From: Lobosporangium transversale
Lineage: Eukaryota; Mortierellomycota; Mortierellomycetes; Mortierellales; Mortierellaceae
Reading direction: 5' to 3'
Assembly (NCBI RefSeq): GCF_002105155.1
Contig: NW_019028980.1
Span: 868,001-932,000, forward strand
Length of the DNA: 64,000 nt
In this document: positions 2,066 to 25,386 of the stretch, in pieces
Position numbering within the stretch: the first letter of the stretch is position 1
Layout: the number at the start of each line of letters is the position of its first letter
Position numbers and translations under genes: made by a program
Notes under the pieces: model-generated
What the model saw: the letters and a program-made list of their open reading frames with translations, nothing else
Told to the model about the DNA's origin: nothing
The model's database searches: none

Positions 2066-5000
2066 ATGAATGATAAGAGTGAGAATTTCTTGTTTGACAA
2101 AGAGCATGGCGAAGAGTATGGCGAAGAGTATGACGAAGAGTATGACGAAGAGTATGGCGAAGAAAATAACGACGACTTTGATGAATATCACTCATTCAAC
2201 CAGGAAGTCAGAAAATCTAGACGAAGACCCTACTTTCAACGAGAGTAGGTGCGAATTCGAGACTGACGATGATTACAGCGGGTTTTCTGGAAGGCGATCG
2301 CCTGTAAGTCTATACCTTTGACTCTTAGTTGCTAGTTAATACTTGATATCCCTTGCTTCGAGCCTTTTTACTGACTTCTTCCGTACGCGTCAATGCTTCT
2401 GTAGTCAGAGAGCCTCATCGACCGACGCGCCCAGCGGCAAGCGCAGGCGAAGTGTGATATATGGCGTCGTGGTCAGGACAGACACGAACAAGAGCAAGTT
2501 GATGTTTACCAAAGCAACGATATTGACCATTCTGGCGGAGAATACAATGTCTTGGGCGTGAAGACGCGCGAAGGGCGTTCAAGGTCTATGTTCGAGGAAG
2601 TGCAAACACGCCAGTTGCCCCAAGTGACTTCAAGAAGCGAAGCCAGCGTCGCCGCCAGTAGCATCAGGTCTGCCCAAGCCAAACGAGGATATCCTAAGAC
2701 TCCTTCTCCTCCAACAAATCAGGGACTGCCTATTCAACCTGCCAGACCTAGGTCATTCCTACGTTCAATCTCAGCATCCCATGTTCTTGGCTCACCCTCT
2801 ACATCCACATTATGCGCTCCGCGACAATCCCCACTACCACCGCTACAAAGGGCCGAGAGCTTTCATTATTATCGCAGTCCACAGCCTAGGTCTTATCTCC
2901 TCAGTTACTTCATCGTACTCTGGACGGCATAGAGATATGCATGGCGTTCAGCCCAAGTCGCCCATCTCCCTGCACCAGACCTCTCGGGCATCTTCATCGT
3001 CCTCCTCTTTTCGTGGACTTCCTCAGATCTCACGAGATTTAGCCTATCCTTTATCTTTTGACAACCCATAAGCAACCCTGCTTGCAGCTGAAGCTGAAGC
3101 TTTGGAGCAGCGTCGACCTAACCTACGTACCAGTCATGGAGCATCGGAGACATGGTACACGCTATATGAATCGCTTGAACTTGGCGTTTTACCTTCGCCC
3201 GAACGGTGCGACGACGCGCCCGCCTCACAAAAGCCTTTGGCACAAGTCCCAATACATAAGTCCATACGCAAGTCTAGTATCCTTGGACATTTCTATAATA
3301 CAGATGCATCTGGCTTCTTCGAATGCCAGGTTAAGAACAGTCTCGGGGTAAAGTGTGGCATAAAGTACAAGAAGTTAGGGGCGGCAGATCACGAAAAAAC
3401 CATCTCCTCAAAAACCACTCCACAATATATGAAGCTGTGCAGGAATTTCGCCTCTATCAAGGCATGGTCCAGAATGTCAAGTCGTCGAAAGATCAAGATG
3501 ATGATGATGATGAGCCCCCTAGACCACAGGGGAACTTCGAAGTGGCTAGAGAGGGATTTGTTCTTACGACTATGAAGAGGCCACTTCCGTATGAACAACA
3601 GTTCTTCGAGAAATTACTTTTAAGGCTTATCGCCGACAACGGAGCGACCTTCAAAATAATTGGCTCGGATTCTTTCAAGGCAATATGTTTGCAACTTAAT
3701 GCATTATACGTAATTCCAAGCACAGACGCTATCCAATCAAACATGGATTTAAGTGTAATGCATATGTGGAGGCAAATCGAGATACATCACTGATCGTAAA
3801 ATTCAAGGCGCAATCACAGCGGATAGTTGGACAAGCGGTGATCAAAGGAAGTTCTTTGGAGTAACATTTCACTTTCTAACACATGACTTTCAGCCGGCTT
3901 CAGTTGTGATTGGCATGGAACGAGTCCAAGGCCCTCAATCGGCAGAAGTCCTATTGGAAAAGCTTGGTAAGAATATCATAGCTTTAGCTCTGTCGGTTTA
4001 CTGCCTGTTTGAGACCTATGTAAATAACACTTTTAATCCTGGAATTTGTTCTATAGAACGTGTAGTCGCAAGATGGAATTTGGAAGGGCATTTGATCTGT
4101 GCAACAACGGATCAAGGGTCGAACATAAAAAGAGCCATACAGCTTTATAATCTAAAGAAGAGTATTACCTGGCTTCCCTGTTTTTCCCATGTAATACAGC
4201 TGTGTATCAATAAGGCATTGGAACGAAGTTCTGGAGCTAAGGCGGTGATGGAAAAATGCCAAAAGATCTCAACCTTCTTCAGAAGCTCCAGTCTTGCTAT
4301 GGATCTGCTTAACAATCAGCGTAGCAAAACTGCTTACAACGAATGTCACGCGATGGAACTCAAAATTCAACATGGCAGCAAGGGTGCTTGAAGTTTCAGA
4401 AGCAATTACAGCGGTCTATCAATTAATGAGGGCAGGATCCAAAGACGAAAAGCTCAAGGCTGCGGAGCTCGGGCGGCACCTCCTTGTCGAGGGAGAGATC
4501 GAGACCCTGCAGGAGATTATCACGCTCTTGGAGCCGGCTGCCAAGCTTACACACTGGGCAGGCGCACATGATAACCCGACCATTTCGCAAATCTATTTGA
4601 GGGTCTACACCATGCTCCCGGCGCTTACAACATTCCGAACGGAAGAGACGAGAGAGTTATGGCAAAGCCTGGACGAACAGATCAAAAAATCGTGGCCTCT
4701 CCAGGACATTCCAGATACCGTGCTCATTTCTATATTCCTGAACCCTGCTTGCGCAGCACTCGATATCTTAAAGGATACGATGCATGCTAGTGGGGAAAGT
4801 CTGTTTATAAAAGCAAAAAAACTCTGCAGCGAAGCCTTTAAGATATTCAAAGAGAATAATACAGTGACAAAAAATCCATTGCAAACGAGTGATTATCAGA
4901 TACTCTACTTCTCTTCGAATTTTGCGGTAGAGCTCTACACTTCATCGGTACGCTTGCCGGACTACAATCACGATCGCTTTAAAGATAAGCCTCAGGACTA

Positions 5001-5226
5001 TTGGAGGCCATATGGCATCGATGAAAATATCTCAGTTGAGGAACTTGCCCACTTCGCGCGCTCGTACCTCTGTATCCAGTCCACATCAACTGAGTCTGAG
5101 CGTTTGTTCAGTAAGGCAGGGCTAGTCCTCTCTCCACTTAGGACCAACCTCAGTGATCGAAATGTGCGCAACATCATTTTTAGTCACAGCTTTGAGAAGA
5201 TTCGGACTTTGTTAGACTTACAATGA
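2066..5226 (+). pseudogene. Decayed hAT transposase with an acidic and Ser/Pro-rich N-terminal extension
   Basis: The reading frame is recovered only by changing frame several times. From 2066 an acidic Glu/Asp/Tyr repeat changes frame near 2210, then an apparent phase-0 intron lies at 2304-2404. A disordered Ser/Pro-rich segment breaks again near 2880 and 3070. A Cys/His-containing region near 3330-3420 may be a zinc-finger remnant. Another break near 3780 precedes the RNase-H-like start ITADSWTS (about 3813). An in-frame 90-nt intron sits at about 3966-4055, followed by TTDQGSN. After a frame change near 4340 comes TRWNSKF and then an open frame to 5226 holding the hATC region (STSTESERLFSKAG). 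At least five frame disruptions make it inactive unless sequencing errors are involved. Identification as hAT is firm from the core and C-terminal motifs. Confidence 0.85.
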
Positions 5227-8660: not shown

Positions 8661-10882
<2,222 letters not shown>

Positions 10883-11358: not shown

Positions 11359-12207
11359 TTATAGAATCGTGCACTTTGACTTCTTCTTGGTGGGCTTCTT
11401 CTGAGGTACACCGCCATCACGCGCTTGACGGATCATCCTGACCACATTGTAGAATGAGCGTTCAACGTTCACACAGGTCTTGGCTGAAGTCTCCGTAAAA
11501 TCACATCGAAGTGCCTTAGACATCTGATAGCCCTCGTCGCGTGAAACCTCGCGCTCTGTCAATTTGTCACATTTGTTGCCCACGAGCATCAAAGGAACGT
11601 TCTCTGTATCTTTGACACGAGTGATTTGGTCCCGGAAACGTTTTATCCTCTCAAATGTTGAACGGGCTGCAATTGAGTAAACCAGCAGGAATCCCTCTCC
11701 GTCACTATTTTTTTTAAAAAAAACATAAATAAATAATACATTAAAAAAAGGTTAAAACTCATTTGAGCTACTCAGGATGCACTACAGTTCAATCAGCCAG
11801 CTTTCTCCTGTGCTCAACTAGCTACTCAAATGCATGAGAGCATCATACAGCTAAAGACAACATTTGTAGTTAAAAAGAAAAGAGCAAACTAAAGAGCATT
11901 TCCCTCGAACTTGGGCCAATCTCTCGCCAGAAACAAGAAAAGGTAACCTACCGAATCCATTGGTCTCTCAATGCAGTATATTCTTCCTGTCCAGCAGTAT
12001 CCAAAACTTCCAGAACGCATGTTTGGTCGTCAATTACAACTTGCTTTCTGTAAGAATCTTCAATAGTGGGATCATATGTCTAATAAAGAGTCAAATGTAG
12101 GACAATGGCTTATTAGTTGATGCCAAGCTCACGTTGATAACCTAAAGGTTGGTTACTCACATCATTTTTATGATGTCGCTCACCCATCAATAACAAACAC
12201 GCATGCG

Positions 12208-12238
<31 letters not shown>

Positions 12239-13907
12239 TCACCAAAAAATAGATATAGCCATGTGTCGATGTACGATGTCAACGGACAGATTGAGAAAGG
12301 AAGAGGATAATAACGCAAGCATCTGCTCTCATATTCCATTTAACATAGAGAGTAGCCGTGAAACAATGTAAATGCAATTAACTATGAATAATGAAGGTGA
12401 GACGAGAAAAAAAAAAAAAAAAAAAAAAAAAAGAAGACCTTCCTAGATCTGAAATCGCTCATGCTTCCCACATGTCTGCAATATCTTATCCAAATATGAA
12501 TTCCAAGGCCACACAAATCAAATAAACAATACATGATAAATAAGAGATCTTCCGAAGATAGGCTTACCTCTGTTATATGGAATGACACATATATCCATGT
12601 CAATAATTAGCCGTACATCAAGAAGCATTTCATTCGATATCAAACAGTCGAGATGATTAATTTGAAATGCGAGAGATTCATCATTGTTGTTGATATCAGG
12701 AGAGGAAGAAGAAATAAAATAAAATAAAATAAAAGAATAATGAGCTGACATTATTCAATTATTCAGGCATAATCAAATGGGTCCACTACAATAACTAAGA
12801 GACAAACAATGGCTTACCCACAAAATGATTTAAGCATAGCTGATAGTAATAAAAACAAAATAGAAAGTCAATGGAGAAAATAGGGAACGTTAGCTCAAGA
12901 CTATTTTGCATTGCATAGAGAATGGAGATGTGATTGATCTTCCTGAAACGCGTCCTTTTATCCTTTTGATTAAAGTCAAGTCATCGAGCACACTAAAGAA
13001 CCGAAGCTTCTTTTGCATGTCTGACGTACAAGACTTTAAGAATTGCATAGAATAGTGATCCAAGGGGCCCGTTCAGCACACCTACCTGAATAGTCAAAGC
13101 AGTCTATAATGTTCGAGAAGTGGAAGGACAGTAGAACGTATAGTTAGAATCAGCATGCGCGGTTAGCTCCGTTCAGACAACAAATGGTATCGAGTGTTTC
13201 CTTCACATTTGTATGGCCAAATAATGTAACACTAAAGTCCAACTGTTCCTCCTCCTCTTAAAATGCCTTGCAGGCAGGGTATTTTCAGTTCTTCATGTCA
13301 TTTACAATGAAGCAGCTGATTAACATCCCTTCCCCATGTTCCTCATGCCATGTGTCAAAAAAAAAGAAGGTTTATCTTTTTTCTTCAGATTCACTTTTGC
13401 ATTGAAACTCAGAGACTAAACAGGCAGATGCGTGAATGTTTGTGCGTGTGAGGAAAGGTGCATGTGCAGGGTTGGAAGGGGTCCTTATTCCTACTATGGA
13501 TCTAAAAAAAACAGAAGGATCTGTTTATCCAATCGCTTTCCAAACACCTAAAGAGGGGTGGCAAGGTGGCGGCGAAGATGAAGAGGAATAGGAAATCGAA
13601 AGGGTTGATGGATGCGGAATTGTAGTTGAATAGGATAAAATAATCCTTAGTTCTTTTCACACAGACACACAAATGAACGCCATGGAATAGAACGGGAGGA
13701 ACAAACAGGAGTGGCTGATATCCATCATAGTTGCCTCGAATGTCATACCTTGCCAACACCTCCGTCCTATAGACGTTAAAAAAGAAAGTATCCAGCGATA
13801 CATAACAATGTTAGGATTGTTTACCAAAAGACCATTTCATTCATTACAATGCGTCAAACGAATTGACAATGACTTACTCCGAGAACGACAAGCTTGTAGA
13901 GCATCAT
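11359..13907 (-). CDS. ras2: Ras2/RasB-type small GTPase, gene with microexons
   Basis: A membrane-attached GTP/GDP switch. Exons, in transcript order: 13907-13878, 13766-13749, 13103-13086, 12839-12818, 12569-12568, 12079-11952, 11704-11359; sum 564 nt, 187 residues. The N-terminus [10 protein letters not shown], then DGGVGK, then TALTIQ and LCLNHFV come from separate small exons. They rebuild the P-loop GDGGVGKTAL and lead into [12 protein letters not shown] (switch I), DTAGQEEY (switch II), NKCD and ETSAK. Switch I and the run [20 protein letters not shown] match the filamentous-fungal RasB/Ras2 class rather than Ras1. The tail has a polybasic patch (KKPTKKKSK) and a CTIL CAAX box; terminal Leu suggests geranylgeranylation (inference). 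The 2-nt exon is deduced from frame and conservation. Identity is firm; the microexon structure awaits transcript evidence. Confidence 0.92.
12568..12569 (-). other. Predicted 2-nt microexon (AG) of the Ras-type gene
   Basis: On the minus strand the sequence reads ATATAACAG, then AG, then GTAAGCC. Exon 4 ends GTG-G with donor GTAAGCC, and exon 6 begins ACA-TAT-GAT after TTATTAG. Joining exons 4 and 6 directly gives GTG GAC ATA TGA, a stop. Inserting AG gives GTG GAG ACA TAT, the V-E-T-Y expected before [10 protein letters not shown] in RasB proteins. No other donor or acceptor I could find restores the frame with the conserved residues. Confidence 0.65.
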
Positions 13908-20146: not shown

Positions 20147-20794
20147 ATGTCTGATAATCCTTTTCTTGCTCTTATCGAGGGCCTCAATACTGATGACTCA
20201 ACAGTTGCCACTACTACACCTGAAGACTATGCTGCGGAATTATCGCTCTGGACCAATGCAGAATTCACATTTGACATCCCACCTGGGTTAGGTGTCTTCG
20301 AGACTGATTCTGGTTTTGAAGATCCCGCTGTAATCAATACTGTCTCTTATTTTGGTGGCCAGGACCAGTTACTACTCCAACATCAACAATCACAGCAGCA
20401 GCAGCAACAGCATGATCCTATGCTAGGACACATGCATAATGACCAATCTCGACAGATCCAGACTACATCGCCATCAACTTTAGACATTTTCAATCTCACA
20501 ACATCGCAAGGTAAATTTAGTTGAAAAAAGGCTGGAAAAACAAAGAGGTTGCGAGATGGATGCAGAATGATTCAAAGCGAACATTGAACAGACATCTGAT
20601 AATACACTTTCTTTTTTCCTGGTCATGGTTATGGAATATGAATGTCTATAGAGTTTAGACCACTATCACTCTTGGAGCGTAGTCGTCAACGTAATCCAGT
20701 AAATGGGGATAGGTCTGATTGCCAGCAGCAGCAGAAGGAAGGAGAAGAAAAGCAGGCATCAGAACCAGGGGCAAGGCAATTGGCGATTAAAGAT

Positions 20795-20837
<43 letters not shown>

Positions 20838-21232
20838 TTAGTATCACAGAAACAACAGACCAAAAACCATTGCGGAGTGATAACACTTCCTCTGTTTCAA
20901 CCTCAGTCTTAGACACTTCTGTCCAAGAAATATCAAAGGATGAAGCCCTCTCAAACATGTCCAAACTGACACCAGAAGAGGATAAAAGACGACGTAACAC
21001 AGTCGCATCCGCACGCTTCCGACTAAAAAAGAAGCTTCGTGAACAAGTTTTGGAACAAACAGCGCTTGAACAGACAACTCGTGCAGAGAAGCTGGAAGCT
21101 CATGTTCGGGAGTTGGAAATGGAGGTGCGTTGGTTGCGTGGCTTAATTGTAGAGAAGGATTCGAGGCTTCATGAGGCCACAGTTAGTTTGTACGATACCA
21201 ACAAGCGGGTGCGGCTAGATGAATCGGATTAA
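20147..21232 (+). CDS. bZIP transcription factor, CYS3/MetR/Met4-like
   Basis: Two exons, 20147-20510 and 20652-21232, joined G|AG to give 314 residues. The N-terminal 120 residues are acidic and Gln-rich (activation-type), the middle is low complexity with an Asn-Ser repeat encoded by an AGCAAC array (about 20795-20838), and the C-terminal 90 residues hold the bZIP. The basic region KRRRNTVASARFRLKKKLRE has the Asn-x7-Arg spacing and closely matches the sulfur-regulator class (CYS3 of Neurospora, MetR of Aspergillus). It is followed by a short leucine zipper with VRWLRGLIVEKD. The expected role is nuclear activation of sulfur-amino-acid genes; this is inferred from the class, and binding specificity could differ. 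No homeodomain or other extra domain is seen. Confidence 0.88.
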
Positions 21233-24030: not shown

Positions 24031-25386
24031 CTATTCCTCATCTTCCTCCTCGTTCTCGTCCTCATCTTCACCGTTTTCATCATCCTCGTCCTCTTCTTCT
24101 TCATCTTGATCCATGCTCACTGACTTTGGCTTTTTCTGGACAGTGATTCTAGTGGTACCATCGTTAGGAAGAGAATTGAAGATAGGCAAGGCAATTGAGC
24201 TACTCGTCTTCAAATTAATAGCCTGAATATTTTTCCATTGGCGGGGAATCTTTGCAACAATATGGGGGATCGCAGTCTCGATATTGGCAGTGATCTCAGC
24301 AGGAGTTTGACTCGTCAATCCGATCCTGACAGCACTAAAGTAAGACATGGAAACGGTTTGTTTTTAGAACGACATAAATAGCCCGTCCGCCATATGTTTC
24401 CAAGATATAAAAATAAAAATAAAATAACAACATAAAAATAAAGTAAAATAAAATAAAATAAAATAAAATAAAAATAGCGCTTATGAATAAGAGGAATGAG
24501 CAATACAGAGCAAATCAAAAATGTTAAAGGTAAGTTTGCATATGGTGGGTGAAAGAAAACTTACGTGCAAGTTCCAGAGGTAAGATGCATATATGTTGAT
24601 CCAATAGCGCGCGATATTTCTTTCTTGAGATCGGTTTTGGTCATATCGACAGGAACGGGTTGTTTCTTTTTGAGGTAAAACGTTTTGCCGAGTAATTTGG
24701 GTAAGACAGCCACCACGCGAGCATCCGCCAAAAACATACCATAGGATGCACACAATTGACGCTTTGCTTCATAGGGTTTATATTTGGCACGCAATTTTGA
24801 CACTCCAATGACTTTGTTGATCGATTTGACATTCTTATCTTCCAACAATTTTTTATAATCTTTCTGAGGATCCTTGACAAACAAACAGACCTCTGCATCT
24901 GATGGAGTGATCGGGTACTTTAGAGGACTAGCCAATAGAGAAGGAAAAGATGGTTAGGAGAAGGATGCTTTGCTAGGGCTGATGATCATTTATATCCGCA
25001 ACTTGTCAATCTCCTCGAACTACATATTAATTAAGCATTAAAAAAAAAAAAATAAAAATAAAAATAAAAAAAAAATCAAATAAAAAGAATCCGACTTCCC
25101 AGGCCCAAAAAAAAAAAAAAAAAAAAAAAAAAAGACGTACATGCGCTGAGGCTTTGCTTTGTTGACATCTGAGAACTTCTTTGTAGCAATGATTAGCCAA
25201 ACAAACTGATCCTCCTCCATGAGCTGATTCTTGCTTTGTCCAACCTTTTCAATGTGTCCGAGAAGAGCCTTGACAGCCTTATCAGCCTAGAAAAAACCCA
25301 CATGTTTGTAGCAACAAAGTCAGAGATAGAGAAGAGTATTTTGATTAATAAACACTTAATAAGTGGCTGTCACTTTTTTTTTTCCT

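Follow-up and report, generated by a model that had tools for sequence, protein, structure and literature searches.

The CYP621A P450 genes of Fusarium contain a single-nucleotide exon, called the first for a fungal gene by its authors, and the accessible part of the same article cites exons of 2–5 bases for Arabidopsis, Drosophila and humans (PMC12940212). Exons of 1 nt are likewise described, in the available sections of the respective articles, for APC11 of Arabidopsis (PMC4674806) and for VPS55 of plants (PMC8831610), and the Drosophila micro-exons presented in the available part of PMC8042270 are 3–7 nt long. Ultra-short exons are hence already known; what would be new in the gene described here is a 2-nt case in Ras that is replicated internally by a paralogue. 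Among the titles and opening lines of abstracts listed from the open-licence literature, none dealt with a 2-nt exon in Ras of a fungus. The preliminary description of the locus called exons of this size extremely rare, which is fair, yet exons of 1 nt have been published for plants and Fusarium.

Gene structure and the gap between exons 4 and 6

The window, i.e., the whole stretch of 64 kb that was analysed, carries a Ras gene on its minus strand that can be read as seven exons. When joined, these encode a protein of 187 residues from the first ATG, or 186 from the second. The features are as follows (slashes in sequences mark exon–intron boundaries here and below).

13878..13907, minus strand: exon 1, coding part, 30 nt; begins ATGATG, two adjacent ATGs; donor GTAAGT
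13749..13766, minus strand: exon 2, 18 nt; DGGVGK of the P-loop
13086..13103, minus strand: exon 3, 18 nt; TALTIQ
12818..12839, minus strand: exon 4, 22 nt; LCLNHFV and the first base of the Glu30 codon; donor GTAAGCC
12570..12817, minus strand: putative intron 4, 248 nt; 3' end ATATAACAG; branch-point-like word CTAAT some 38 nt upstream of this end
12568..12569, minus strand: putative exon 5 (micro-exon AG), 2 nt; second and third base of GAG (Glu30)
12080..12567, minus strand: putative intron 5, 488 nt; GTAAGCC...TTATTAG; branch-point-like word CTAAT some 34 nt upstream of the 3' end
11952..12079, minus strand: exon 6, 128 nt; starts ACA TAT GAT (T-Y-D); remainder of switch I and the switch II region; Pfam Ras match
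11359..11704, minus strand: exon 7, 346 nt including the stop; ends ...KKKSKCTIL; Pfam Ras match

The Pfam Ras match of the AG-containing protein is unbroken and covers positions 1–161 of 162 (188.4 bits), and the best solved chain for the protein is K-Ras (E 1.2e-62). With its complete Ras domain and a C-terminal end of the CaaX type (CTIL), the product has the features of a Ras-family small GTPase, and RasB is a possible subfamily label. Glu30, the residue that would be completed by the micro-exon, is presumably the first residue of switch I in the usual Ras numbering. Three other open reading frames in the window have Pfam matches of their own, to the dimerisation region of hAT-family transposases (4294–5226, plus strand, 37.5 bits), to a basic leucine-zipper domain (bZIP_2; 20642–21232, plus strand, 36.2 bits) and to the ribosomal protein L1 family (24561–24935, minus strand, 107.9 bits).

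As assembled, the sequence around the end of exon 4 reads GTGGGTAAGCC (within 12810–12845, minus strand), and the phases of exon 4 (GTG G) and exon 6 (ACA TAT GAT) leave a gap of exactly two bases. Joined directly, through the junction GTGGACATAT, the two exons give ...NHFVDI followed by a stop. Inclusion of AG (GTGG-AG-ACATAT) restores the frame, with GAG for Glu30 in the sequence V-E-T-Y. Within the 738-nt interval between exons 4 and 6, AACAG/AG/GTAAGCC is the sole occurrence of AG/NN/GT, and here a canonical acceptor and a canonical donor directly flank the AG at 12569–12568 of the minus strand. The sequences and coordinates quoted for exon 4, exon 6 and AACAG-AG-GTAAGCC in the preliminary description were all confirmed on that strand. 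Its claim that a 2-nt exon, the AG at 12569–12568, is required to give V-E-T-Y also holds up, as the frame is lost without AG and the same exon is present in a paralogue on contig C65.

Splice sites were scored with donor and acceptor weight matrices built from a small set of 24 introns, which were taken from GTPase genes of this genome and placed by hand via the protein frame; 8 of the 24 come from the two Ras genes, with the micro-exon introns left out. On this scale, the micro-exon donor of the window gene reaches 8.8, the best of the interval (next best 2.9), and the acceptor 5.8, which ranks second among the AGs listed. The window Ras gene very probably contains a 2-nt exon that is needed for the reading frame. 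At the position of the micro-exon, four other Ras-type genes (L027, L041, L038 and L034) are intronless and keep the F-V-x-x-Y-D-P spacing, and alignments with K-Ras (3 of 345 matched PDB sequences) are ungapped.

The paralogue on contig C65

The genome (42.7 Mb in 127 contigs) has 15 chitin synthase matches, as against none in 14 control genomes, and is accordingly taken as fungal. Searching it for Ras led to a closely related gene on contig C65 (L010, L052). Its exon lengths of 30-18-18-22-2-128 are those of the window gene, and exon 7 measures 343 nt versus 346 nt. Base identity between the two genes amounts to 26 of 30 in exon 1, 17 of 18 in exon 2, 16 of 18 in exon 3, 18 of 22 in exon 4 and 107 of 128 in exon 6. 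In both paralogues, the 5' part of the coding sequence is divided into very short exons (30, 18, 18, 22 and 2 nt), and the introns around these measure 111–645 nt in the window gene and 99–598 nt in the paralogue. Intron 3 of the paralogue (L052/L010) is of the GC-AG type with the donor GCAAGT, as is the third intron of L023, a gene we take to be Ran-like; this genome thus seems to make use of GC donors. Together with L020, presumably also Ran-like, L023 was rejected as a Ras paralogue because both read like Ran, and the two were kept for control introns only. The Ran-like genes L020 and L023 also look paired, as do the Ras-type genes L027 and L041. Relatives were in addition sought in viral contigs, where none was found, and in contigs of prokaryote genomes, which gave two that are distant and uninformative.

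The paralogue is likewise two bases short. GTT G at the end of its exon 4 is followed by GTATGT, its exon 6 opens with ACT TAT GAT, and within the 544-nt interval AACAG/AG/GTAAGTT is again the sole AG/NN/GT, with GTTG-AG-ACTTAT as the junction formed when AG is included. The micro-exon donor scores 11.3 and is the best of the interval (next best 3.2). With a score of 4.1, compared with 3.6–7.9 across the 24 control acceptors, the acceptor is weak, and seven other AGs listed in the interval score at least as high. The last 60 nt of intron 4 in the paralogue contain no branch-point-like word of the form YTRAY, a word that is also absent from 4 of the 24 control introns.

The site divides the interval differently in the two genes: intron 4 measures 248 nt and intron 5 488 nt in the window gene, against 443 nt and 99 nt in the paralogue. 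A T-run is the best that local alignment finds between the two exon 4–exon 6 intervals. If words built from just one or two letters are set aside, the only words of at least 12 bases common to both intervals are an A-run followed by GCTC, and AACAGAGGTAAG. The latter 12-mer, picked after both genes had been seen, occurs 6 times in the 42.7 Mb (both strands), 2 of these at the homologous micro-exon sites; its letters read backwards, which served as a control, occur 15 times in the genome. The two proteins have the same residue at 174 of 187 aligned positions, but 77 of these 174 codons differ, as do 42 of 76 fourfold sites, a divergence of about 1 substitution per site in a Jukes–Cantor hand estimate. 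An intact Ras protein in spite of such codon divergence indicates that selection acts on the frame in both paralogues. The two missing bases, the single site that fits them and the retention of this site in an old duplicate can be read directly from the DNA. A 2-nt exon conserved between old duplicates is the interpretation suggested by these observations, and the exon looks both real and old.

The paralogue also bears on three explanations that dispense with a micro-exon. If AG had been lost from the end of exon 4 by an assembly or sequencing error (true sequence GTGGAG/GTAAGCC), a single intron would suffice and the frame would be restored. Such an error is exceedingly unlikely, since the paralogue, which lies on another contig, misses the same two bases and has the same micro-exon next to a different exon 4 end (GTTG/GTATGT). 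Alternatively, a single intron could extend from exon 4 to exon 6 and use a non-AG acceptor (TATT/AGACATATG), in which case the two bases would come from the intron end. Both genes have TATTAG/AC at this point, and joining there would also yield GAG. The AG is, however, uninformative because canonical introns end in AG anyway, the resulting GT-TT intron would be abnormal, and the common AACAG/AG/GTAAG, with the best donor of both intervals, would be left unexplained. We therefore regard this arrangement as highly improbable.

Drosophila has zero-nucleotide recursive splice sites, in which acceptor and donor adjoin directly and a long interval is removed in two steps. The juxtaposed acceptor and donor in the Ras genes have the form of such a site, and AACAGAG/GTAAG could in principle be a zero-nucleotide recursive splice point only, with a transcript that is non-coding or truncated. 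This is barely credible given that both paralogues keep an intact Ras protein, and that the frame of both appears to need the two bases.

Other candidates for the missing bases were rejected. Single internal exons ending at the strong micro-exon donor were enumerated as alternatives, and the longer ones that are in frame (two in the window gene and three in the paralogue) all contain stops. AG/NN/GC candidates, one per interval, have very poor donors and do not give Glu codons. In the window gene, the donors of exon 4 and of the micro-exon are both GTAAGCC, as if one were a copy of the other; in the paralogue the two differ (GTATGT versus GTAAGT).

At both loci, an enolase gene is located convergent to Ras (about 9366–10879 on the plus strand of the window, and about 246–743 in L010). 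The window copy has a Pfam match to enolase, and pieces are 88 and 94% identical between the loci. The pair of Ras and enolase looks like a duplicated segment or the remains of an older genome duplication. With enolase beside Ras at both loci, a duplicated segment is suggested, and the micro-exon would then predate the duplication.

Chance and control tests

The frequency with which sites of this quality arise by chance was evaluated in simulated and in real sequence, the latter with a cut-off of 14.5 for AG/NN/GT sites, set from the score of the window site itself (14.53). Among 20,000 first-order Markov sequences for the window gene, a 2-nt exon of equal score that gives Glu was found in a fraction of 0.00025, and any 2-nt exon of equal score in 0.00095; for the paralogue, a Glu-giving site as good occurred in 0.00005 of 20,000. 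AG/NN/GT is present in 8 of the 24 control introns (13 sites), none of which reaches 14.5. Both strands of the 64-kb window contain two such sites scoring at least 14.5, and only the micro-exon site is of the Glu type. Twenty-eight other GTPase loci, i.e., the 30 GTPase loci minus the Ras pair L010 and L013, comprise 90,584 bases (both strands, partly overlapping) and have no AG/NN/GT site of at least 14.5. Because the paralogue repeats both the gap and the site, and because the 12-mer is common to the two genes despite their divergence, chance or assembly error behind the micro-exon is judged very unlikely.

Proposed splicing mechanism

The reading that we favour, with a probability of roughly nine in ten, is that of a functional Ras GTPase gene in which the fifth exon is AG, is included constitutively, and has its flanking introns removed one after another. 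Use of the exon in RNA, the order of the steps and constitutive inclusion are what we infer from the DNA sequence. Two bases are too few to carry the factors that mark an acceptor and those that mark a donor simultaneously. Since a 2-nt exon is too small for both sets of factors, the flanking introns would have to be spliced sequentially. In the first step, exon 4 would be joined to AACAG/AG, leaving GAG/GTAAGCC; in the second, this GAG/GTAAGCC, an intact donor, would be spliced to exon 6. The overall scheme would resemble recursive splicing, except that two bases stay behind. The exon letters AG fit the donor consensus, and because exon 4 and intron 4 both end in G, the donor context would be unchanged after joining of exon 4 and AG. 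Removal of intron 4 first is the most likely order, and removal of intron 5 first is also possible. As for precedents, the 1-nt exon in APC11 of Arabidopsis has been argued to be spliced sequentially, and the available part of the same article describes removal of the second intron first in potato invertase (PMC4674806).

The preliminary description went further and suggested that inclusion of the exon could act as an on/off control. As a regulated switch, inclusion would give Ras, and skipping, or use of the second AG in AACAGAG, would lead to an early stop and probably to mRNA decay, so that Ras output could be tuned. In line with this, skipping truncates the protein after V-D-I, and, the exon itself being AG, a zero-nucleotide choice is possible in both genes. 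Flank identity outside the 12-mer is also slightly raised, at 23/65 upstream and 21/55 downstream, a sum that 4.2% of 20,000 random placements match or exceed. A precedent for regulated inclusion is the 20-nt exon of Trichoderma Xlr2, which, according to the accessible part of the report, changes its inclusion with glucose (PMC11121469). However, no donor within the interval is stronger than that of the micro-exon in either gene, and the slightly raised identity of the flanks reveals no clear common element; the search for a common regulatory element in the flanks of both genes gave only this small excess outside the 12-mer. The suggested control is without direct support, and nothing that we found indicates regulated skipping. 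We consider a switch of this type unlikely.

The two AGs at the micro-exon stand two bases apart in both genes, so that the second may sometimes be used, which would shift the frame. A stronger version would make AACAG/AG/GT a two-way choice in both paralogues, where the first AG gives Ras and the second a transcript that is decayed, and where the balance sets the Ras level; this we find quite improbable. The strong donors kept in both copies are a mild argument for constitutive use of the micro-exon.

Comparison with known ultra-short exons

If the constitutive 2-nt exon is true, it would rank among the shortest known coding exons, located in a GTPase that is central to signalling and retained in both members of an old duplication. 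It suggests that the fungus can splice a 2-nt exon with enough reliability for an important gene to depend on it, and the two paralogues would offer a natural pair of substrates for studying what determines the order of splicing where exon definition cannot operate. It is also a warning that automatic annotation may break genes with such exons.

The layout of the Ras site is the same back-to-back arrangement of acceptor and donor as in the zero-nucleotide recursive sites of Drosophila, but here two coding bases must remain. The closest described case appears in the available part of the work on Fusarium CYP621A: as for the Ras exon, it is fungal, was found via a phase misfit, lies between AG and GT within a conserved motif, and is conserved among homologues (PMC12940212). 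Unlike the Ras exon, which has 2 nt and one paralogue and is read from the DNA, the CYP621A exon is 1 nt long, belongs to P450 genes, and is documented by 20–24 genes and by RNA reads (PMC12940212). The exons of APC11 and VPS55 are, in the accessible parts of their descriptions, similarly ultra-short, missed in annotations and needed for the frame, with sequential splicing proposed for APC11, but they are 1-nt exons of plants and were tested with constructs or RNA-seq (PMC4674806, PMC8831610). Trichoderma Xlr2, in the part of the report available, provides a micro-exon of a fungal regulatory gene whose inclusion is needed for a key domain, as would be the case for Ras, but that exon is ten times longer, at 20 nt, and its inclusion is glucose-dependent (PMC11121469).
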